Of a stretch of DNA of 64,000 nucleotides, positions 52,685 to 62,732 are shown in pieces. The position numbers were made by a program, and so were the translations under genes. Source of the stretch: Micromonospora sp. WMMD980. GTDB lineage: Bacteria; Actinomycetota; Actinomycetes; Mycobacteriales; Micromonosporaceae. The notes below the pieces were generated by a model. That model was not told the origin of the DNA, searched no databases, and worked only from the letters and a program-made list of their open reading frames with translations. The DNA is taken from NCBI RefSeq assembly GCF_029626035.1, contig NZ_JARUBE010000003.1:2976001-3040000 (forward strand), read 5' to 3'. Each line of letters opens with the position of its first letter. The first letter of the stretch is position 1.

Positions 52685-53674
52685 TCAGCCGGTCTCCTCC
52701 TCCAGCAGCGTCAGCACGAACCTCTCCACCGCGTCGCGCGGCATCTCCGGGCGCACCGGCGCCAGCACCCCGTCGTGGTAGAGATCAACCACGCGCGGAT
52801 CCACGTAGGACGTCCGCGCGACCGTCGGGGTGTTGCCGAGCAGCTCGGCGACCGAGCGCATCACCGCGGCCACGGCCCGCCTGCGGGCGGTGGCGGACCG
52901 CTGCGGGCCCACCGTGGCCAGTTCCGCGGCGGCCAGCACGGTGGCGTGCCAGGTGCGAAAGTCCTTCGCGGTCATCTCCCCGCCGCTGGCGTCGCGCAGG
53001 TAGTCGTTCACCTCGTCGCTGCGCACGTCGCGCCACGCCCGCCCGTCCCAGTAACCGAACAGCCGCTCCTGGGCGCGCCGCCGGCGCCGCAGGTTCAGCA
53101 GCACCTGACACAGCTCGGCGTCCTCGATCCGGCGGACCTGGTCGATGCCGCCCTTGGCCGGGAACTCGAAGACCACGCACCCGCCGCGCGACCGGGCGTG
53201 CTCCGGGCGCAGCGTGGCCACGCCGAAGGTGGGATCGTCGCCGGTCGCGTACTGGTCGCTGCCGACCCGGAACGCGCCCATGTCGAGCAGCCGGGCCACG
53301 GTGGCCAGCACCCGTTCCCGCCGCAGCCCGCGCAGCCCCAGGTCGTGGGCGACCCGGTCACGCAACGCCGGCAGCCGGTGCGCCACCTCCAGCACGTGGT
53401 CGAACTTGGCCTCGTCGCGCTTGCGACGCCACTGCGGGTGGTAGAGGTACTGCTTGCGCCCGGCCGCGTCGATGCCGGTGGCCTGGATGTGCCCGTTCGG
53501 ATACGGCGAGATCCACACGTTCCGCCAGGCGGGCGGGATCACCAGCTCGCGCAGGCGCACCAGTTCGTCGGCGTCGCGTACCGGCTCGCCCGTCGCGTCC
53601 AGGAAGAGCCAGCCCTTGCCGCGTCGCCGGCGCCCGTACCCGGGCCGGCCCGGGTCGCTACGCCGCAACCGCAC
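52685..53674 (-). CDS. DNA topoisomerase IB (poxvirus-like)
   Basis: This eukaryal/viral-type IB topoisomerase has 329 residues. It has PPAWRNVWISPYPNGHIQATGIDAAGRKQYLYHPQWR, the catalytic Arg/Lys block and FRTWHATVLAAAEL. The active-site Tyr is in ARTSYVDPRVVDLY. GTG 53674 lies inside the end of the GT9 gene (17-nt overlap), so it is co-transcribed with the glycosyl operon, an unexpected pairing. It relaxes supercoils through a 3'-phosphotyrosine. Confidence 0.93.
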   Translation of the reverse strand: MRLRRSDPGRPGYGRRRRGKGWLFLDATGEPVRDADELVRLRELVIPPAWRNVWISPYPNGHIQATGIDAAGRKQYLYHPQWRRKRDEAKFDHVLEVAHRLPALRDRVAHDLGLRGLRRERVLATVARLLDMGAFRVGSDQYATGDDPTFGVATLRPEHARSRGGCVVFEFPAKGGIDQVRRIEDAELCQVLLNLRRRRRAQERLFGYWDGRAWRDVRSDEVNDYLRDASGGEMTAKDFRTWHATVLAAAELATVGPQRSATARRRAVAAVMRSVAELLGNTPTVARTSYVDPRVVDLYHDGVLAPVRPEMPRDAVERFVLTLLEEETG

Positions 53675-54608
53675 CGGGCACCCGTTCCACCTCGGCCACC
53701 GCCGCCACCACCTCGTCGACCCCGATGGCAGCCAGAGCCGGGTGCGTTCCTACACCCGCCGGGTCCGGGACCGGTCCGGGACGCTCGGTGACGCCGAGCG
53801 CCCGGTGCCGGGGCCGGTCCGCCGGCGGGCCCCAGTGCGCCGCCGGCACCGGGCCGAACAGCACCACCGAGGCGGTGCCGTAGCCGGTGGCGAGGTGGGC
53901 CACGCCGGTGTCGCCGCTGACCACCAGCCGCGCGTCGGCGACCAGCGCGGCCAACTCGGCCAGCCCGGTCCGGCCGGCCAGCACCGCCGACGGCGGCAAC
54001 CCGGCGTCCGCGGCCACCCGGGCCGCCAGCGTCCGCTCGTCCGCCGAGCCGGTGAGCACCACCCGGTGCCCGCCTGCGGCCAGCGCCCGGGCCAGGGCGA
54101 CGAAGCGGTCCGCCGGCCAGCGCTTCGCCGGCACCTTGCCGCCCGCGTGCAGCACCGTCGCCCCGGCGGGTACGCCTGCCGGCGCCGGACGCCGCAACGC
54201 CAGGTCCCCCGGGTCGGCCGCCACGCCGTACGCGTCGAGCAGCCGGCACCAGCGGCGGACCTCGTGCTCGTCGCCGTCCCACACCGGGCCGTCCAGGTGG
54301 CCGGCCGACGGGTTCCGGTAGGCCAGCAGCCGCCCCGGGCGGGTGGCGGCCAGCGCCCGGTGCGACTCGGGCCCCCGGCCGTGCAGGTTCACCGCCACCT
54401 CCGGCGCCGGACCGCGCCACCCGATCCGGTGCGGCCCCGTGGTGGGCAGCAGCCGGTCGACCGCGCCGGTCAGCTCGACCAGCGGCGCCAGCCACGCCGG
54501 GGCGGCGAGCACCAGCTCCCGCCCGGGCAGCCCGGCGCGCAGGCCGCGCAGCGCCGGGACCGCGGTGGCCAGGTCACCGACGCCCAGCGCGCGCAGCACG
54601 AGGATCAC
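53658..54608 (-). CDS. GT9 heptosyltransferase-like glycosyltransferase
   Basis: This GT9 (WaaC/WaaF-like GT-B) protein has 316 residues. It begins ILVLRALGVGDLATAVPALRGLR; the donor-binding C-domain has VLHAGGKVPAKRWPADRFVALAR and SGDTGVAHLATGYGTASVVLFGP, both heptosyltransferase hallmarks. GTG 54608 overlaps the SDR stop (GTGA). ADP-heptose is the likely donor, given the biosynthetic genes in the same operon; the acceptor is unknown. Confidence 0.88.
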   Translation of the reverse strand: MILVLRALGVGDLATAVPALRGLRAGLPGRELVLAAPAWLAPLVELTGAVDRLLPTTGPHRIGWRGPAPEVAVNLHGRGPESHRALAATRPGRLLAYRNPSAGHLDGPVWDGDEHEVRRWCRLLDAYGVAADPGDLALRRPAPAGVPAGATVLHAGGKVPAKRWPADRFVALARALAAGGHRVVLTGSADERTLAARVAADAGLPPSAVLAGRTGLAELAALVADARLVVSGDTGVAHLATGYGTASVVLFGPVPAAHWGPPADRPRHRALGVTERPGPVPDPAGVGTHPALAAIGVDEVVAAVAEVERVPGAVAA

Positions 54609-55306
54609 GGGTACGAGGACTCCCGCTCGGCGCAGACCACCATCTCGCGGACCGCGCAACCGGGCGGCTGGGAGAGCGCGAACATCACCGCCGCGGCGGT
54701 GTCGGCCGGCTCGTTGAGCGCCGCGTCGGGACCGGGACGGTACTGCGCGTCCCGCTCGTCGAAGAAGGCGGTGCGCATGCCGCCGGGGACGAGCAGGGTC
54801 ACCCCGACCGCGCCGGCCAACTCGGCGGCGAGCGCCCGGGTGAAGCCGACCACCCCGAACTTGGCCGCGCAGTACGCGGTGGCGTCGCCCACCGCCTTGA
54901 CGCCGAGCGTCGAGGCGACGGTGACGATGGTGCCCCGGGACTCCTCCAGGAAGGGCAGCGCGGCCCGGATCACCGCCGCGGTCGCCAGCAGGTCCACCGT
55001 GACGATCCGCTCCCAGGTCTCCGCCGGCACGTCGGCCAACTTTCCGGGCACGTCCATTCCGGCGGCGGCGACCACGCCGTCCAGTCCGCCCGCGCGTCGC
55101 GCGAGTTCCCGGGTGGCGGACTCGGCGGCTCGGGTGTCGGCCAGGTCGCACTCCACCCACGGCACCCCGTCGGCGGGGCGCTGCCGGTCCAGCACCAGGG
55201 GCCGGCCACCGGCGGCGGCGACCGCCGTGACCACCGCCGCGCCGAGACCGCTGGATCCGCCGGTGACCAGCACGGTGGGCCCGGCGCCGGGCACGCCGGC
55301 GCTCAT
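54605..55306 (-). CDS. Classical short-chain dehydrogenase/reductase
   Basis: This 233-residue SDR has the cofactor motif VTGGSSGLGAA and catalytic YCAAK (with Ser in VASTLG). It is too short and lacks the extended-SDR pattern of HldD, the ADP-heptose 6-epimerase, so it is not an obvious epimerase. It lies between hldE-like and GT9 genes, 28 bp after hldE and overlapping GT9 by 4 nt. It may oxidise or reduce the heptose or an acceptor. Confidence 0.88.
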   Translation of the reverse strand: MSAGVPGAGPTVLVTGGSSGLGAAVVTAVAAAGGRPLVLDRQRPADGVPWVECDLADTRAAESATRELARRAGGLDGVVAAAGMDVPGKLADVPAETWERIVTVDLLATAAVIRAALPFLEESRGTIVTVASTLGVKAVGDATAYCAAKFGVVGFTRALAAELAGAVGVTLLVPGGMRTAFFDERDAQYRPGPDAALNEPADTAAAVMFALSQPPGCAVREMVVCAERESSYP

Positions 55307-55334
55307 GCCGTGCCCGCCCGGACACGTGGTGAGT

Positions 55335-56816
55335 TCATCGTGCTCCCTTCGCTGTGGACCGGACGACCGTCTCCCGGGCGGTCCCCGCACCGGTCACCGT
55401 GCCGGCCGGCCAGCCGGCCCGGGCCGCCGCGATCATGTCGGTGGTGGACCGCCCGTCCAGGTACGGCACCACCACCGTGTGCCCGCCCCAGCGGGCCAGG
55501 ATCTCCGACTCGGGCAGCGTCTGGTCGCCGCCGCCGCTGGCGTAGTCGCCGCCCTTGACCCAGATGTCCGGGCGCAGCCACGACAGCGCCGCGTGCGGCG
55601 TCGGCTCGTCGAAGATCAGCACCGCGTCGACGCAGCCGAGCGCGGCGAGCAGCCGGCTCCGGTCACCCTGCGGCACGACCGGACGCTCCGGCCCCTTGAG
55701 CCCGGCCACCCCGGCGTCGGAGTTGAGGCAGACGATCAGACAGTCACCGAGCTGGCGGGCCGCCTGGAGGGTCGCCACGTGCCCGGCGTGCAGCAGGTCG
55801 AAGCAGCCGCCGGTGGCCACCACGGTGCCGCCGGCCGCGCGTACCCGGGCCACCACCTCACCGGCGGCCCCGGCGCCGATCCGCTCCCCGCCGGCGGCGA
55901 CAACCGCCGGGGCGACCGTCGGCGGCGGCGCCGGCAGCGCGCTGGCCACGCCCCCGCCGGCCACGTACGCCGAGGCCTCGGTGACCGCCTCCTGCACCGC
56001 CTCCGACACCAGCGCGCCCCGGGCCAGCGCGAGTGTGGCCGCGGCGGCGAACCGGTCCCCCGCGCCGCAGGTGTCCCCCTCGGCGGCCGGTGCCGGCACC
56101 ACCAGTGGGGTGGAGCCGGCGTGGCAGAGCAACGCGCCGTCCCCGCCCAGGGTCACCGCGACCGCGCCGGCCTGCCAGCGCCGCCGCAGCGCCTGCGCGC
56201 TACGGGAGGCGTTCGCCAGGCGGGAGCCGCCCGGCGGCGTCTTCGCCAGCTCGCGGGCCTCCGGCTCGTTCGGGGTCGCCAGGTGCACCCCGGGGATCGC
56301 CGCGGGGCCGCGCGGGTGCGGGTCCCAGACCACGGGCGCCCGGGTGGCGGCCAGCGCCGCGCGCAGCGCGGGATGGCCGGCCACACCCCGCCCGTAGTCG
56401 CTGACCAGAATCGCGGACGCGGTGGCGAGCAACCGCAGCACCGCCTCGCTCGGCTCACCCGGCACGCCGGTCGACCCGCCCCGGTCGTGGCGCAGCAGCA
56501 CCCGCCCACGCACCCGCAGCCGGATCTTCTCGGGGGTGGCGCCGGCCAACGGCAGCGCGTACAACTGCACGCCGGCGGCGGCGAGCAGGGTGCCGAGGCG
56601 GGCCCCGCCGGCGTCGTCGGCGACGGCGGTGACCAGCGCGACCTCGGCGCCCTGCGCGGCCGCGAAGACGGCGGCCAGGCCGGCGCCGCCAGGCCGGTCG
56701 ACGGACGTGGTCTCGTCGAGCACCGGCACCGGGGAGTCCGGGCAGAGCCGGTTCACCAGCCCTTCGACGTCGCGGTCCAGCAACGTGTCACCGAGCACCA
56801 CCACGGGTCCCGCCAT
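55335..56816 (-). CDS. hldE: Bifunctional heptose-7-phosphate kinase / heptose-1-phosphate adenylyltransferase (HldE-like)
   Basis: 493 residues in two domains. Residues 1-310 form a PfkB-family kinase (N-terminal VLGDTLLDRDVEG; RPGGAGLAAVFAA; anion hole GDTCGAGDRF with catalytic D254). Residues 325-480 form a nucleotidyltransferase (GGCFDLLHAGHV; HAGH at 343-346; VKGGDYASGG). This is the HldE (RfaE) architecture, making ADP-heptose from heptose 7-phosphate together with GmhB. GAGGAGG precedes ATG 56816. It sits between gmhA and the SDR. Confidence 0.92.
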   Translation of the reverse strand: MAGPVVVLGDTLLDRDVEGLVNRLCPDSPVPVLDETTSVDRPGGAGLAAVFAAAQGAEVALVTAVADDAGGARLGTLLAAAGVQLYALPLAGATPEKIRLRVRGRVLLRHDRGGSTGVPGEPSEAVLRLLATASAILVSDYGRGVAGHPALRAALAATRAPVVWDPHPRGPAAIPGVHLATPNEPEARELAKTPPGGSRLANASRSAQALRRRWQAGAVAVTLGGDGALLCHAGSTPLVVPAPAAEGDTCGAGDRFAAAATLALARGALVSEAVQEAVTEASAYVAGGGVASALPAPPPTVAPAVVAAGGERIGAGAAGEVVARVRAAGGTVVATGGCFDLLHAGHVATLQAARQLGDCLIVCLNSDAGVAGLKGPERPVVPQGDRSRLLAALGCVDAVLIFDEPTPHAALSWLRPDIWVKGGDYASGGGDQTLPESEILARWGGHTVVVPYLDGRSTTDMIAAARAGWPAGTVTGAGTARETVVRSTAKGAR

Positions 56817-56827
56817 GCTCGACCTCC

Positions 56828-57502
56828 TCATCGGGCCTGCACCTCCGGATCCGGGTCGCCGAGCACCACCTCGACACCGGCCCGCACGCCGTCGGCCGGG
56901 GCGCGGCCGGCGAGCGCCGCCGGCAGCGCCTGCTCCACGTACTCGCAGAGCACGTGCACCGCGACCAGGTGCAGTTCCTGCACCACCTGGCTGTCCGGCG
57001 AATCGACGGCGAGGGTGCCGTGGCAGAGGTCGGCCAACGGGTTGGGGGCGGGGCCGGTGAAGGCCCAGGTGCGCAGGCCGGCGTGGTGGGCGGCGGCGGC
57101 AGCGGCGCGGAGGTTGGTGCTGGTGCCGCTGGTGGACATGAGCAGGAGGAGGTCGCCGGGTCGGCCGTGGGCGCGGACCTGGCGGGCGAAGACCTCGTCG
57201 TAGCCGTAGTCGTTGCCGATGGCGGTGAGCGCGCTGGTCTCGGCGTGCAGGGCGATGGCGGAGAGGGGTTGGCGGTCGTCGCGGAGCTTGCCGACGAGCT
57301 CGGCGGTGAGGTGTTGGGCCTCGGCGGCGCTGCCGCCGTTGCCGGCCACGAGCAGCCGCCCACCCGCGGCGAGCCGGCGCGCCAGCTCCCCGCCCCAGCC
57401 CGCCAGCAGATCCTCCGCGTCGCGCAGCGGGAGCAGGGCGGCGGCCAGCCGGGTCAGGTGGTCCGCCAGCACCGTCGGACCGGGTGCGGGGGTGGCCGCC
57501 AT
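56828..57502 (-). CDS. gmhA: Sedoheptulose-7-phosphate isomerase (GmhA-like SIS protein)
   Basis: This SIS-domain protein has 224 residues. It carries the GmhA signatures LLVAGNGGSAAEAQHLTAELVG and LLLMSTSGTSTNLRAA, and Glu/His in VVQELHLVAVHVLCEYVE. It would convert sedoheptulose 7-phosphate to D-glycero-D-manno-heptose 7-phosphate, the substrate for the kinase encoded next. Its start and the stop of the upstream GT4 share one base (TGATG), giving coupled translation. Confidence 0.92.
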   Translation of the reverse strand: MAATPAPGPTVLADHLTRLAAALLPLRDAEDLLAGWGGELARRLAAGGRLLVAGNGGSAAEAQHLTAELVGKLRDDRQPLSAIALHAETSALTAIGNDYGYDEVFARQVRAHGRPGDLLLLMSTSGTSTNLRAAAAAAHHAGLRTWAFTGPAPNPLADLCHGTLAVDSPDSQVVQELHLVAVHVLCEYVEQALPAALAGRAPADGVRAGVEVVLGDPDPEVQAR

Positions 57503-58719
57503 CAGGCGACCACCCGGGTGGGCCGGCGCACGGTGGCCACCTCGCCGTAGAGCTCGGCGAGCCGCTCGGCGGCGGTGGCCCAGGAGTAGTGGGTACGGGC
57601 CCGTTCCAGGGCCGCGGTGGCGTAGGCGAAGCGGCGGATCCGGTCGCCGAGCAGGGCGCGGATGGCCGCGCCGAGCGCCGCCGGCTCGCGGGCCGGCACC
57701 AGGTCGCCGGTGCGTCCGGGCACCACCGTGTCGGTCAGCCCGCCGACCGCGGTCCCGACCACGGGCACGCCGCAGGCCATCGCCTCCAGCGGGGTGAGGC
57801 CGAACGGCTCGTACCACGGCGCCGCGACCAGCACGTCCGCCGAGCGGTACCAGCGGGCCATCTCCTCGCGCGGCACCGCGCCGACGAGGCGGACCCGGTC
57901 GGCGATGCCGAGCGAGTCTGCCAGCGCGCGCAGCCGCAGCGCGTACGGATCGGACTCCAGCAGCCCGGCCGGTGGCCCGCCGACCACCACGCACTCGGCG
58001 TCCGGCACCCCGGCGACGGCGCGGATGACGTCCTGGAAGCCCTTGCGCTCCACCAGCCGCCCGACGGTGAGGACGCGGGCCCGGCCGCCGTCGGAGTCGA
58101 CGACCGGGCCCAACGGACCGAACGTGGACAGGTTCACCCCCGACGGCACGACCGTCATCCGGGACCGGGGCACGCCCAGCCGGACCAGCTCGGCCACCTC
58201 GTCCTGGCACTGGGCGACCACCCGGTCCACCGAACGGCCCAGCTCCCGCTCGTGGTCGATGCGGCCCGGCGGGCTGGTGTCCTGGGCGCCCTGGTGGCGA
58301 CGCTTGACCGTGCCGAGCGCGTGGTAGGTCTGCACCACGGGTACGCCGGTGCGGCGGGCCGCGGTGAGCCCGGCCAGGCCGCTCATCCAGAAGTGCGCGT
58401 GCACCACCTCGGGCTGCCAGTCACCGGCGCCCCAGCGGTCGGCCAGCCAGTCGCCGAACGCCGGCATGTAGGGCAGGAGGTCGTCCTTGGCGACCGGCTC
58501 GGCCGGTCCGGCCGGCACGTGCACCACCCGGTAGCCGTCCCGGGTGTGGACGGTGGCCGGCAGGTCCACCGCGTCCAGTCGGGTGTAGACCCGGACGTCG
58601 TGGCCGGCGGCCGCGAGCGCGGCGGAGAGCTCGGCGACATGCGTGTTCTGGCCACCGGCGTCCTCCCCGCCGAGGACGGCGAGCGGGCTGGCGTGTTCCG
58701 AGATCATCGCGATGCGCAT
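57502..58719 (-). CDS. GT4 family glycosyltransferase
   Basis: This GT-B retaining glycosyltransferase has 405 residues. It begins MRIAMISEHASPLAVLGGEDAGGQNTHVAEL (MshA/sucrose-synthase-like N-terminus). The donor domain has VLTVGRLVERKGFQDVI and PWYEPFGLTPLEAMACGVPVVGT, with the E-x7-E motif. It overlaps the next upstream gene by 16 nt. Donor and acceptor are unknown; it probably extends the heptose-containing glycan. Confidence 0.92.
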   Translation of the reverse strand: MRIAMISEHASPLAVLGGEDAGGQNTHVAELSAALAAAGHDVRVYTRLDAVDLPATVHTRDGYRVVHVPAGPAEPVAKDDLLPYMPAFGDWLADRWGAGDWQPEVVHAHFWMSGLAGLTAARRTGVPVVQTYHALGTVKRRHQGAQDTSPPGRIDHERELGRSVDRVVAQCQDEVAELVRLGVPRSRMTVVPSGVNLSTFGPLGPVVDSDGGRARVLTVGRLVERKGFQDVIRAVAGVPDAECVVVGGPPAGLLESDPYALRLRALADSLGIADRVRLVGAVPREEMARWYRSADVLVAAPWYEPFGLTPLEAMACGVPVVGTAVGGLTDTVVPGRTGDLVPAREPAALGAAIRALLGDRIRRFAYATAALERARTHYSWATAAERLAELYGEVATVRRPTRVVA

Positions 58720-59678
58720 ACTTCCTCCTCCAGCAGCCGGTCCCAGTCGGCGAGGAAACGCTCCAGGCCGTAGCGGTCACGGGCGGCGGCCCGGGCCACG
58801 GCGCCCGCCCGGCGGGCGGCCGCCGGGTCGTCCAGCAGACCCCGGGCGGCGTCGACGAGCACGTCGACCCGGGTGGAGAGCGCGCCGGCGGCCGGTGGTA
58901 CCGCCTCCACCGCCTCGGTGGAGGCGAGCGCGACGACCGGCATGCCGATGGTCATCGCCTCGACGAGGCTGAGCCCCAGCGACGTCCACCGGCACAGGTG
59001 CAGATAGGCGCGCCGTCTGCCCAGCTCGGCGTGCATGGCGTGCTGGGGCACGTCGTCGTGGCTGGTGAGCCGGTCCTCGGGGAGCCCCAGGTGGGCGGCC
59101 AGCCCGGCCACCTTCATGCCGTAGACGTCCAAGGGCGCTACCGCCGCGAACCGGGCGAGCAGGTCGGTGCCGGTGACCCGCCAGCGGCGCACCGGCTCGT
59201 TGACGACCACGGCCAGCCGGTCGAGTTCGCCGGTCCACTCCACCGCCGGGTCGACGACACCGTGCTCGACGACCGTGGTGCGGGTGGTCCCGTTGTCCCA
59301 GAACAGCTCGTTGAAGTGCGTGACGTGGGTGAGGAGCAGGTCGTCGCGGTCGGCCATCGGGTGGCGGGTGTTCGGCACGTCGCCCTTCGGGGTGTTGTGC
59401 TCGACGTAGATCGCCGGCACGTCCCGGCCCACCCGGCGGCCCAGCCACTCGCCGGCCAGGTCGAACTCCTCGGGCCGTTGCAGGATCACCAGGTCGACGT
59501 CGGCGCGGGCCAGCTCCTGCGGGGTCACCTCGACGGCGTCGTCCGGCCACGGATAGGTGCGCGCCCGCCCCAGGCCGTACGGGCCCCGGTCCGGGGTGAC
59601 CGGCACCAGGTAGCGGTGCTTGCCGTGCACGAAGGACGTCGTCCAGGAGCCGTGCACGTGCCACAGCAGGATGTTCAT
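58704..59678 (-). CDS. Glycosyltransferase (GT-B, GT1/GT4-like)
   Basis: This 324-residue protein begins MNILLWHVHGSWTTSFVHGKHRYLVP. The C-terminal half has CRWTSLGLSLVEAMTIGMPVVALAST, the donor-site Glu motif of GT-B enzymes. The N-terminal domain is atypical (IYVEHNTPKGDVPNTRHP). It overlaps both neighbours (ATGA with the GmhB-GT9 gene, 16 nt with the GT4). It is a member of the same glycan operon; specificity unknown. Confidence 0.85.
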   Translation of the reverse strand: MNILLWHVHGSWTTSFVHGKHRYLVPVTPDRGPYGLGRARTYPWPDDAVEVTPQELARADVDLVILQRPEEFDLAGEWLGRRVGRDVPAIYVEHNTPKGDVPNTRHPMADRDDLLLTHVTHFNELFWDNGTTRTTVVEHGVVDPAVEWTGELDRLAVVVNEPVRRWRVTGTDLLARFAAVAPLDVYGMKVAGLAAHLGLPEDRLTSHDDVPQHAMHAELGRRRAYLHLCRWTSLGLSLVEAMTIGMPVVALASTEAVEAVPPAAGALSTRVDVLVDAARGLLDDPAAARRAGAVARAAARDRYGLERFLADWDRLLEEEVCASR

Positions 59679-61312
59679 CCGACCACCCCGAGCAGACGCA
59701 ACGCCTCCAGCACCCGACCCGGCTCGACCGCCGAGAGGCAGGGGTGCCCGGGGACCGGGCAGGTGGCGGCGCGGGTGTCGCGGCAGGGCGCGGCGGCGTC
59801 GCCGAGCCGGACCGTGGGCACCCGGTAGGGCCCCCACTGGCCGAACGGGACGGTCGGGGCGAACAGGCTGACCACCGGCACGCCCAGCGCGGCGGCCAGG
59901 TGCGCGGGCCCGGTGTTGCCGACCACCAGCGCGCCGGCCCGGGCGATCACGGCCGCCAGCTCGTCCAACCCGGTCCGGCCGCCCAGGTCGACGCCGCCCG
60001 CCGCGGCGACCCGGGCGGTCAGCTCCCGCTCGTCCGGCCCGCCGGTGACCACGACCCGCAGGCCGGCGGCGCCGAGCACCCGGACCATCCGGGTGGCCAG
60101 CTCGACCGGGCAGGCCCGGGTCTCCACCGAGGACCCCGGGTGCAGCACCACGTAGCCGGGCGGCCCGGCGGCGGCCGGTACCGGTGGCATCCGGTCGGTG
60201 CGCAGTCGTAGTCCGGGTTCGTCGTCGGTGGGCAGGGTGTAGCCGGCGGCGGCGGCGAGGGAGAGGGCGCGTTCGGGTTCGGGTACGCCGACGGGAACGC
60301 GGTGACGCACGTCGAGCAGGGCGCCGGGGTAGTCGTCGCTGATGGCGCTGATGCGGGGTACGCCGGCGAGGCGGAGCAGCAGGGCCAGGGGCAGGGGTGA
60401 CTGGTGGAAGCTGGTGAAGACGACCGCTTCGTCGGCGTGGACGGCGGCGAGGCGGTCGGTGAGCGCGCGCATCGTGTGCGGGTCGACCGGCGGGGCGGGG
60501 GCGTCGATCCAGGGCAGTGGGCATTCGACGATCTCGTCCACGCCGGGGAGCAGTTCGGCGGCGGCGCGGCCGCGGGGGCCGCAGAGCAGCACGACCCGGT
60601 CCGCGCCGGCCGCGACCGCCCGGATGCCGGGGCCGGTCACCAGCACGTCGCCCGCCGCGTCGCTGCGGACCACCAGCACCGTGCCCCGGCCCGGCCGGTG
60701 GTTGCCGGTCGGCGCGGCCACCAGCCGCATTCTTGCCAGCACCGTGTCCACCGCGTCCGGCAGGTCGACGGCGACGGTGGGCGCGGCGGCCACCTCGACG
60801 TCGCGGGTGGCCGGTGTGGGCACCATGACGGCGGCGGCGCCGGCGGCCGCCGCGGCGGCCATGTCGGCGCCGATGTCACCGACCAGCACGCAGCGGCTCG
60901 CGGTGGTGTCCAGCGCGCGGGCGGCCGCGTGCACCATCCCCGGCGCCGGCTTGCGGCAGGCACACCGGTCGGACTCCGCGTGCGGGCAGATCTGCCAGTT
61001 GTCGAACGGCCCGAGCAGTTCCTCCACCCGGGCGTTGACGCGGCGCAGGTCGTCCGCGGTGAAGTGGCCTCGGGCCAGACCGGACTGGTTGGTCACCACC
61101 GCCAGCCGCAGCCCGGCCGCGCGCAGCCGGTCCAGCGCCTCCCGGGCGCCGGGCACCGGGCGGACCTTCTCCGGGTCGCCGTTGTAGGGCACGTCCTCCA
61201 CGAGCGTGCCGTCCCGGTCGAGCAACACCGCCTGATACAGGCCGGACGGGGGCGCGTCAACCGGCTCAACCCCGGCTGACCTGCACTGATCCCGCTCGTG
61301 GTCCCGTCGCAC
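59675..61312 (-). CDS. GmhB phosphatase fused to GT9 heptosyltransferase-like domain
   Basis: 545 residues from GTG 61312 (TTG 61351 is possible). Residues 25-195 form a HAD phosphatase of GmhB type: nucleophile and acid D32/D34 in LLDRDGTLVEDVPY, zinc ligands C109, H111, C117, C119 in CPHAESDRCACRKPAPGM, and GDIGADM. Residues 210-545 form a GT9 glycosyltransferase (VLVVRSDAAGDVLVTGPGIRAV; YVVLHPGSSVETRACP; VVGNTGPAHLAAALGVPVVSLFAP). It combines heptose-bisphosphate dephosphorylation with transfer in one chain. It is the first gene of the operon. Confidence 0.9.
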   Translation of the reverse strand: MRRDHERDQCRSAGVEPVDAPPSGLYQAVLLDRDGTLVEDVPYNGDPEKVRPVPGAREALDRLRAAGLRLAVVTNQSGLARGHFTADDLRRVNARVEELLGPFDNWQICPHAESDRCACRKPAPGMVHAAARALDTTASRCVLVGDIGADMAAAAAAGAAAVMVPTPATRDVEVAAAPTVAVDLPDAVDTVLARMRLVAAPTGNHRPGRGTVLVVRSDAAGDVLVTGPGIRAVAAGADRVVLLCGPRGRAAAELLPGVDEIVECPLPWIDAPAPPVDPHTMRALTDRLAAVHADEAVVFTSFHQSPLPLALLLRLAGVPRISAISDDYPGALLDVRHRVPVGVPEPERALSLAAAAGYTLPTDDEPGLRLRTDRMPPVPAAAGPPGYVVLHPGSSVETRACPVELATRMVRVLGAAGLRVVVTGGPDERELTARVAAAGGVDLGGRTGLDELAAVIARAGALVVGNTGPAHLAAALGVPVVSLFAPTVPFGQWGPYRVPTVRLGDAAAPCRDTRAATCPVPGHPCLSAVEPGRVLEALRLLGVVG

Positions 61313-61377
61313 GGGCGGCGGGTTCCCGACCCCCCGAGGAGTAAACGTCAACTTCGGATACCCGCCGTCGAAGAGAA

Positions 61378-61398
61378 GCTAACCCGGCCGTTGTTAGC
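61378..61398. promoter_or_regulatory. Dyad in the divergent promoter of the heptose operon
   Basis: GCTAAC-N9-GTTAGC, between the GmhB-GT9 gene (-) and the SRPBCC gene (+). It overlaps a TAGCTT -10-like box for the minus-strand operon, so it could be an operator. Confidence 0.4.
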
Positions 61399-61427
61399 GG
61401 GGGCCTGGGCGGGGTACCGAACTTCCT

Positions 61428-61874
61428 GTGGCGGTTGTGGAGAAAGTGATCGACGCGTCTCCGGCGCAGGTCTTCGAGGTGCTGGCTGACGGGTGGACCT
61501 ACAGCGACTGGGTGGTGGGTACCACGCACGTGCGCGACGTCGACGACTCCTGGCCACGGGTGGGGAGCCAACTGCACCACCGGGCCGGCCCCTGGCCGCT
61601 CTCGCTGCAGGACGCGTCCACCGTGCTGGAGTGCCGGCCGTCGGAGCGACTCGTGCTACGCGCCGGTCTCTGGCCGGCCGGCGAGGCGATCGTGGCGTTC
61701 GTCCTGGAGCCGCTGCCCGACGGCCGGACCCGGGTGACCATCGGTGAGGACTTCGCGGCCGGCCCGCTGCGCTGGGTCCGGACCAAGCTGAACGACGTGG
61801 TGCTGCATCTGCGCAACAAGGAGACGCTGGCCCGGCTGTCGGACATCGCGACGCGACAGAGGCCGGAGCGGTGA
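61428..61874 (+). CDS. SRPBCC (polyketide cyclase/START-like) family protein
   Basis: This 148-residue helix-grip protein has VVEKVIDASPAQVFEVLADGWTYSDWVVGTTHV at the start and a hydrophobic ligand-cavity pattern. GTG 61428 is 7 nt after a TACCGA box. It is divergent from the heptose operon and 90 nt upstream of the Ppm1-like gene. The ligand is unknown. Confidence 0.88.
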   Translation: MAVVEKVIDASPAQVFEVLADGWTYSDWVVGTTHVRDVDDSWPRVGSQLHHRAGPWPLSLQDASTVLECRPSERLVLRAGLWPAGEAIVAFVLEPLPDGRTRVTIGEDFAAGPLRWVRTKLNDVVLHLRNKETLARLSDIATRQRPER

Positions 61875-61932: not shown

Positions 61933-61965
61933 GTGAACCTGTCGGCCGACCGAGGAAGTCCGTGA
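61933..61965 (+). other. Possible 10-codon upstream ORF coupled to the mannosyltransferase gene
   Basis: A GTG 5 nt after a TACCCT box (61922-61927) opens a frame MNLSADRGSP whose TGA overlaps the next ATG (TGATG). It could be a leaderless coupling ORF. The downstream gene also has its own GAGGA ribosome site, so this is speculative. Confidence 0.3.
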
Positions 61966-62732
61966 TGATCCAACCCGTGCAGTTGCCCTCTCCGTGGGCG
62001 GACGCGCGCCTGACCGTCGTCGTTCCGACCTACAACGAGGCGGGCAACCTCCCGGTGCTGGTCGAGCACCTCCTCGCGCTGCCGTTGCCGGGTCTGAAGG
62101 TGCTCGTCGCGGACGACAACTCCCCCGACGGCACCGGCGAGGTCGCCGACAAGCTGGCCATCGAGCACCCGGAGCGGGTGCTCGTGGTGCACCGCCCCAG
62201 CAAGGAGGGCCTCGGCCGGGCGTATGTGGACGGCATCGGCCGCGCGATCGAGGACGGCGCGGAGTACGTCGCCCAGATGGACGCCGACCTGTCGCACCCG
62301 CCGGAGGCGCTGCCCGGCATGCTCGGCGCGCTGCTGTCGACCCAGGCGTCCGTGGTCATCGGCTCCCGTTACGTGCCCGGCGGGGAGTTGGACGAGAACT
62401 GGCCGCTCTACCGCCGTGCGCTCAGCGGCTGGGCCAACCTCTACGTGCACACGTTGCTGCGGGTGCGGGTTCGCGACCTGACCGCCGGCTTCAAGATCTG
62501 GCGGGCCGACGCGCTGCGGGACATCGGCCTGGACCGGGTGCAGTCCAACGGCTACAGCTTCCAGGTGGAGATGCACTACCTGGCCACCAAGCTGGGCCAC
62601 ACCATCCTGGAGGTGCCGATCCGCTTCGAGGAGCGCCGCGACGGCGACTCGAAGATGACCACCGCCACCAAGATCGAGAGCGCGCTGATGCCGTTCAAGC
62701 TCCGCACCCGGCACCGCAACATCGACTCCTGA
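61965..62732 (+). CDS. Polyprenol monophosphomannose synthase (GT2)
   Basis: This 255-residue enzyme makes polyprenyl-phosphomannose from GDP-mannose. GT2 motifs are VVVPTYNEAGNL, VADDNSPDGTGEVAD, the DxD-type QMDADLSHPPE and the acceptor-side GSRYVPGGELDENWP. The C-terminus has FEERRDGDSKMT. It is soluble, like the catalytic domain of mycobacterial Ppm1, without the Lnt-like acyltransferase domain. GAGGA precedes ATG 61965. It supplies mannose for later PIM/LAM and protein mannosylation steps. Confidence 0.95.
   Translation: MIQPVQLPSPWADARLTVVVPTYNEAGNLPVLVEHLLALPLPGLKVLVADDNSPDGTGEVADKLAIEHPERVLVVHRPSKEGLGRAYVDGIGRAIEDGAEYVAQMDADLSHPPEALPGMLGALLSTQASVVIGSRYVPGGELDENWPLYRRALSGWANLYVHTLLRVRVRDLTAGFKIWRADALRDIGLDRVQSNGYSFQVEMHYLATKLGHTILEVPIRFEERRDGDSKMTTATKIESALMPFKLRTRHRNIDS

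Follow-up and report, generated by a model that had tools for sequence, protein, structure and literature searches.

A heptose-type operon of Micromonospora related to the cwg operon of Streptomyces coelicolor

What does an actinomycete make with a set of genes for the activation and transfer of heptose? To our knowledge, actinomycetes have no lipopolysaccharide (LPS). The question is raised by an operon found at positions 53658-61312, on the minus strand, of a 64,000-nucleotide stretch of Micromonospora sp. WMMD980 (contig NZ_JARUBE010000003.1, positions 2,976,001-3,040,000), which in its entirety is called the window hereafter. The initial annotation proposed that this operon serves a heptose-containing surface glycan, glycolipid, polymer or secreted metabolite. 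The observation of a heptose-type operon is real, and its one-to-one homology to seven genes of the Streptomyces coelicolor cwg operon argues for the proposed link to a surface glycan. On balance, we favour the explanation that this is the actinobacterial cwg operon in a form reduced in Micromonospora, serving an envelope oligosaccharide that contains heptose.

Genes were called with a simple GC-based caller, and gene starts are predictions. The seven open reading frames of the operon are tightly packed, with third-position GC contents of 0.94-0.96, typical of real genes, and adjacent genes overlap by 1-16 bases, with the exception of the HldE/SDR pair. Every one of the seven proteins exceeds the gathering score of one or more Pfam models, the margin being smallest for the protein called GTx. 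Coding statistics and domains thus bear out the seven minus-strand genes described initially at 53658-61312, and the boundaries given there fit an in-frame GTG at 61312 and a stop codon at 53658. In order of transcription, these genes are:

59675-61312, minus strand: GmhB-GT9a fusion, first gene, with a HAD hydrolase (HAD-IIIA) and a Glyco_transf_9 domain; homologue of cwgD and cwgE
58704-59678, minus strand: GTx, a GT-B glycosyltransferase of GT4 type (Glycos_transf_1); homologue of cwgF
57502-58719, minus strand: GT4 glycosyltransferase, MshA-like in sequence (Glycos_transf_1); homologue of cwgG
56828-57502, minus strand: GmhA, sedoheptulose 7-phosphate isomerase-like (SIS_2); homologue of cwgH
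55335-56831, minus strand: HldE-like kinase/nucleotidyltransferase (PfkB and CTP_transf_like); homologue of cwgI
54605-about 55306, minus strand: classical SDR (adh_short); no counterpart found in the Streptomyces locus L117 (see below)
53658-54608, minus strand: GT9b glycosyltransferase (Glyco_transf_9); homologue of cwgJ

The separate gmhB gene of the initial annotation is in fact the N-terminal domain of the GmhB-GT9 protein. The two GT9 domains, two GT-B enzymes and SDR that it listed are all present, but they do not come after the heptose genes, since the transferases are interleaved with them.

Reportedly, the title of a 2002 paper by Hong et al. refers to the cwg product as a 'putative cell wall glycan'. 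The passages of PMC5839063 used here describe SCO6179-6190 as the 12 genes of cwg, a 'cell wall glycan' operon that includes a phosphoheptose isomerase gene (cwgH), a gene for a bifunctional enzyme (cwgI) and transferase genes, and those of PMC5882110 present cwgE as a putative heptosyl transferase 'linked with vancomycin resistance'. The terms cwg and heptose do not occur in PMC13118837, PMC13390465 and PMC13274773. According to excerpts of PMC6767563, the cwg operon is induced by vancomycin and partly dependent on sigma-E. We searched for the cwg promoter printed in the latter excerpts in 392 genomes of one genus, taken as Streptomyces, and found an exact match in one of them, at locus L117. 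The genus of L117 was taken as Streptomyces because this locus groups with the Streptomyces loci L109 and L114 (tree support of 1.0). On the other side of the promoter, L117 harbours a polysaccharide deacetylase gene, as printed for SCO6178.

By our own gene calls, L117 comprises twelve genes, coding for an epimerase, a carbamoyltransferase, GT2, GmhB, GT9a, GTx, GT4, GmhA, HldE, GT9b and two further GT2 proteins, in that order. Genes four to ten of this series have one-to-one matches in the window, with 52-64% identity, including 56% for the fusion (cwgD, cwgE), 54% for GT4 (cwgG), 61% for GmhA (cwgH), 52% for HldE (cwgI) and 56% for GT9b (cwgJ). GmhB, GT9a, GTx, GT4, GmhA, HldE and GT9b are therefore shared, in the same order and orientation, whereas the epimerase (cwgA), carbamoyltransferase (cwgB) and three GT2 genes (cwgC, K and L) of the cwg operon have no equivalent in the window operon. 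As five of the twelve cwg genes are missing, we call the window operon a reduced relative and not a full cwg operon. Conversely, it has an SDR gene before its last gene and combines GmhB and GT9a in one protein, and L117 has neither feature. The hypothesis of an SDR hidden in a 735-base gap of L117 was rejected, as a tblastn search of that locus yielded no match; the SDR occurs in loci of other families.

All 61 sampled Micromonospora genomes have GTx. In an even sample of 296 genomes from across the phylum, it occurs in 30 at an E value no higher than 1e-40, and many of these 30 lie outside the class. A genome scan yielded at least 554 confirmed stretches, from which the best 80 loci were kept, making them close relatives by choice. 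A gene-order search across these relatives supported the initial grouping, with GTx-GT4-GmhA-HldE kept in order in 70 of the best 80 loci. Four of the other ten are on short contigs, and six are full-length loci in which a gene is moved, interrupted or absent, or was missed. This gene order is not due to chance, and the idea that the operon might be a rarity is refuted by its occurrence across the genus and in the 70 loci. Most loci of the window type have the same neighbour genes. In the loci examined outside Micromonosporaceae, GmhB and GT9a are encoded by separate genes, and GmhB is often fused to GT2 instead.

This distribution bears on an alternative explanation, namely that the product of the operon is a secreted small molecule with heptose in it, akin to septacidin or hygromycin B. 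Passages of PMC10221265 report ADP-heptose as a precursor of secondary metabolites in Streptomyces fimbriatus and S. hygroscopicus (for septacidin, also in an excerpt of PMC11461863), and several glycosyltransferases together with an SDR and no polymer export gene in the operon would fit such a product. However, GTx is found genus-wide, mostly with shared neighbours, unlike a strain-specific cluster. A domain search of the operon identified no scaffold-making or transporter gene, and the homologous cwg operon responds to envelope stress, as stated in the excerpts of PMC6767563. We consider a secreted small molecule unlikely.

We then looked for the catalytic signatures of the heptose enzymes. 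In the motif counts, the homologues scored as having no match include cut or miscalled genes, given the simple caller used. The GmhB motifs DRDGT and CxH..CxCRKP are present in 74 and 80 of 81 homologues, respectively, and the window fusion reads DRDGT, CPHAESDRCACRKP and GNTGPAHLA. The solved relatives nearest to its HAD domain include heptose bisphosphate phosphatases. AQHxxxE is kept in 98 of 98 GmhA homologues; the window protein reads AQHLTAE and QELHLVAVH, which fits the His, Glu, Gln and His residues that we take to be the zinc ligands of the SIS domain of GmhA. Among solved structures, its closest matches are phosphoheptose isomerases (135.6 bits). Among 97 HldE calls, GAGD is found in 93 and HxGH in 94, presumably signatures of the PfkB kinase and the nucleotidyltransferase, respectively, and the window HldE reads GAGD, HAGH and YLDGRSTT. 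The conservation of these motifs argues that the active sites of the predicted enzymes are preserved. The initial assignment of ADP-heptose route enzymes thus holds, with conserved motifs, and these enzymes are accompanied by two GT9 transferases and two of GT4 type.

The genome harbours a single credible GmhA, that of the operon, and no ADP-heptose 6-epimerase (HldD) above the cut-off, the best match reaching 106.8 of 274.6 bits. Based on these two observations, D,D-heptose is the predicted form of the product. HldD is an extended SDR. The hypothesis that the SDR of the operon is HldD was dropped, as it is a classical SDR by domain and no HldD passes the cut-off in the genome; its Ser160, Tyr173 and Lys177 residues are conserved (numbering of a 261-residue frame). 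As for the nucleotide, an Arg residue at position 5 of (F/L)XXGXSTT ('STTR5') has been tied to CDP-/UDP-heptose synthesis (Tang et al. 2024, in Science, as related in a passage of PMC11461863). The window HldE has this Arg in YLDGRSTT, with Tyr rather than Phe or Leu at position 1. Among 97 HldE homologues, at least 76 have Arg and at least 7 another residue at this position, and the pattern is unmatched in 10.

Both GT9 domains score well above the Pfam PF01075 gathering score of 22, with 88.8 bits for GT9b and 80.1 bits for GT9a, but they miss the equivalog cut-offs of LPS heptosyltransferases I, II and III (at best 74.8 of 185.3 bits). A GNTG-type pattern is found in 84 of 97 GT9a homologues (13 without), and a GDTG-type pattern in 61 of 90 GT9b homologues (29 without), the latter being GDTGVAHLA in the window. 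The best solved relative of GT9b is heptosyltransferase II. For GTx, whose N-terminus is strongly conserved, a new fold was considered and rejected, as it is an ordinary GT-B enzyme of GT4 type. The identification of GT4 as the mycothiol enzyme MshA was likewise rejected, since it scores 255 of 462.5 bits with TIGR03449 and the MshA of this genome is encoded elsewhere (642.6 bits).

The features of these transferases also bring up the possibility of an intracellular or cofactor-like oligosaccharide, comparable to the mycobacterial methylmannose polysaccharide or to a thiol-type glycoside, with no product at the surface. The GTx fold is near those of BshA, tetrahydrobiopterin glucosyltransferase and the methylmannose polysaccharide mannosyltransferase, and GT4 is MshA-like. 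In addition, all seven proteins look soluble, with no likely membrane segment by hydropathy (maxima of 1.3-1.8, compared with 2.3 and 2.7 in two proteins encoded elsewhere in the window that we consider likely membrane proteins). However, TarM, which we take to be a transferase for wall teichoic acid, has a fold score almost as high, and the GTx fold is therefore silent on the acceptor. The control of the homologous operon by sigma-E and vancomycin, described in the excerpts of PMC6767563, also argues against a purely intracellular product, which we regard as improbable.

In the pathway to an envelope oligosaccharide that we favour, the kinase of HldE would generate the 1,7-bisphosphate and the GmhB domain would take off the 7-phosphate. 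With no HldD, the sugar would keep its D,D configuration. Heptose would be transferred by the two GT9 enzymes and other sugars would be added by the two GT4-type enzymes, while the SDR would alter one of the sugars. As all seven proteins look soluble, a short oligosaccharide would probably be assembled in the cytoplasm on an acceptor, perhaps a lipid, and it would end in the cell envelope. From this gene set we infer each reaction, the acceptor, export and the envelope location.

Several observations weigh against this explanation. The NCBIfam equivalog cut-offs, used as a test of strict enzyme identity, are missed by GmhA (155.4 of 209.45 bits), HldE (242.5 of 521 bits), its adenylyltransferase domain (domain II, 165.1 versus 181.5 bits) and the GmhB domain (124.2 of 178 bits), whereas the HAD domain of the fusion exceeds the thresholds of two less specific models, HAD-IIIA and 'histidinol-phosphate phosphatase domain'. 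GT9a has an Asn residue where GT9b has an Asp; LPS heptosyltransferases have Asp at this GNTG/GDTG position. Five genes of the full set of twelve (cwgA, B, C, K and L) are missing beside the window operon, and a domain search of its genes revealed none for a flippase, polymerase or ligase. A pattern derived from the printed S. coelicolor promoter, which may not be that of Micromonospora, detected no sigma-E-like promoter upstream of the window operon. In the genus taken as Streptomyces, the operon is patchy (present in 1 of the 8 genomes listed). Finally, no report of heptose in Micromonospora walls was found in the open-licence literature.

As the equivalog cut-offs are missed by GmhA, HldE and GmhB, sameness with the E. 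coli enzymes is not to be presumed, and these proteins could use a sugar phosphate other than sedoheptulose 7-phosphate, yielding a product without heptose. Nevertheless, the three activities stand with two GT9 domains in many loci, their motifs are kept, and phosphoheptose isomerases are the closest solved structures to GmhA. The adenylyltransferase domain of the L117 HldE homologue does pass its cut-off (189.5 versus 181.5 bits), although the kinase, GmhA and GmhB of L117 miss theirs. Altogether, a heptose-free product appears very unlikely to us. A heptose-bearing surface glycan is plausible and seems better founded through cwg than in the initial proposal, of which the surface link is supported, while the product, acceptor and type of polymer are conjectural.

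To place the window operon among its relatives, a tree was built from four joined proteins; GT9b is missing in 5 of its 54 rows, the row of locus L123 uses the second-type HldE of that locus, and the 'noCarb' labels of L034 and L035 are due to contig ends. The window falls in a Micromonospora/Salinispora clade without carbamoyltransferase (support of 0.98), which is sister to a second Micromonospora copy with carbamoyltransferase and GT2 (support of 1.0). This second copy (L029, L030 and L031) shares all seven genes with the window operon, including the fusion, at 63-84% identity, and differs from it by the carbamoyltransferase and GT2 genes upstream. The carbamoyltransferase is found in 15 of 61 genomes of the genus and is not present in this one (E value of 1e-100). 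A simple duplication followed by carbamoyltransferase loss in the window copy was considered and dropped, because L070 (Plantactinospora) and L084, which branch outside both Micromonospora copies, are also devoid of it; loss, regain and transfer are thus all possible.

The same genome harbours a second heptose-type locus (L016:6839-10675). It codes for a 628-residue HldE-like protein that carries a low-complexity insert and has an adenylyltransferase domain above the cut-off (207.6 versus 181.5 bits), as well as for a GT2 and a convergent third GT9. As there is no GmhA at this locus, both heptose loci would share one GmhA. In another member of the class (L123:301-4980), a cwg-type core is directly adjoined by an HldE of the second type, together with an aldehyde dehydrogenase and a GT9 in divergent orientation, an arrangement that links the two heptose-type loci.

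The region upstream of the operon was aligned between the window and 16 of 20 loci tried, the other four being left out as the script did not find the anchor motif. In the interval between the operon and a divergent SRPBCC gene (61313-61560), a dyad, CTAAC..GTTAG, flanked by TACCC and GGGTA, is common to the window and the 16 loci. The same alignment revealed a GTTTACTCC..GGGAACCCGCC block, with GGGAACCCGCC directly 5' of the GTG start. The dyad and this block are possible candidates for an operator and a promoter. Five matches to the sigma-E promoter pattern in other loci (L022, L024, L028, L046 and L055) were taken as chance.

Further upstream, a divergent gene (61962-62732, plus strand) codes for a GT2 protein near dolichol-phosphate mannose synthase (110.5 bits to 5mlz), which is 88-96% identical in those window-type loci where it was found. 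In the passages of PMC5882110, cwgE is raised in an S. coelicolor strain without polyprenol-phosphate-mannose synthase activity. At the other end, a type IB DNA topoisomerase gene (52685-53674, minus strand) has, based on its predicted start, 17 bases in common with the end of the operon. A topoisomerase homologue lies directly 3' of GT9b in most window-type Micromonospora loci and, with 62-70% identity, in L093-L096 and L098 (Phytohabitans, Actinoplanes and relatives); in L026, from another family, a homologue with 52% identity overlaps GT9b. A gene for an aldehyde dehydrogenase or a UDP-glucose/GDP-mannose dehydrogenase comes after the operon in individual loci (L025:13368-14726 and L024:12506-13798), hinting at sugar acids in some variants.

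The passages of the cited papers name no chemistry for cwg, and we read its core as a complete nucleoside diphosphate (NDP)-D,D-heptose route. This gives a concrete target, an envelope heptose tied to the vancomycin response, with GTx present in every Micromonospora genome of the sample and also in further classes of the phylum. If this is true, the seven-gene set is offered for reconstitution, and common soil actinomycetes may make NDP-heptoses that activate the mammalian receptor ALPK1, an activity of NDP-heptoses reported in a passage of PMC11461863.

A heptose route in an actinomycete is less surprising than was first thought, as ADP-heptose in Streptomyces is in print for septacidin and hygromycin B (passages of PMC10221265). 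Compared by description, those systems share ADP-heptose in an actinomycete with the window operon but are antibiotic clusters, unlike it. The inner core of Gram-negative LPS, made by GmhA-HldE-GmhB-HldD and WaaC/WaaF, is matched by it in GT9 transferases and in homologues of GmhA, HldE and GmhB, but differs by HldD, absent above cut-off from the window genome, and in that the window GT9 domains stay below the heptosyltransferase equivalog cut-offs. In Pseudomonas, the inner-core heptose is carbamoylated by WapO, as described in an excerpt of PMC8005017. The full cwg form shares heptose genes, two GT9 and a NodU/TobZ-family carbamoyltransferase with that system; the window copy is devoid of the latter, and the likeness to the Pseudomonas system is one of gene content. 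A tentative extension, which we rate as rather doubtful, is that these operons specify a Gram-positive counterpart of the LPS inner core, i.e. a short envelope oligosaccharide with a D-glycero-D-manno-heptose core that would be carbamoylated in full cwg, as in Pseudomonas, and stripped in Micromonospora to a genus-wide constant without carbamoylation, with a donor that may include CDP- or UDP-heptose because of the STTR5 Arg. The window operon itself is a variant of a system already in print, the cwg operon, from which it differs by its reduced gene set, its SDR and its GmhB-GT9a fusion.

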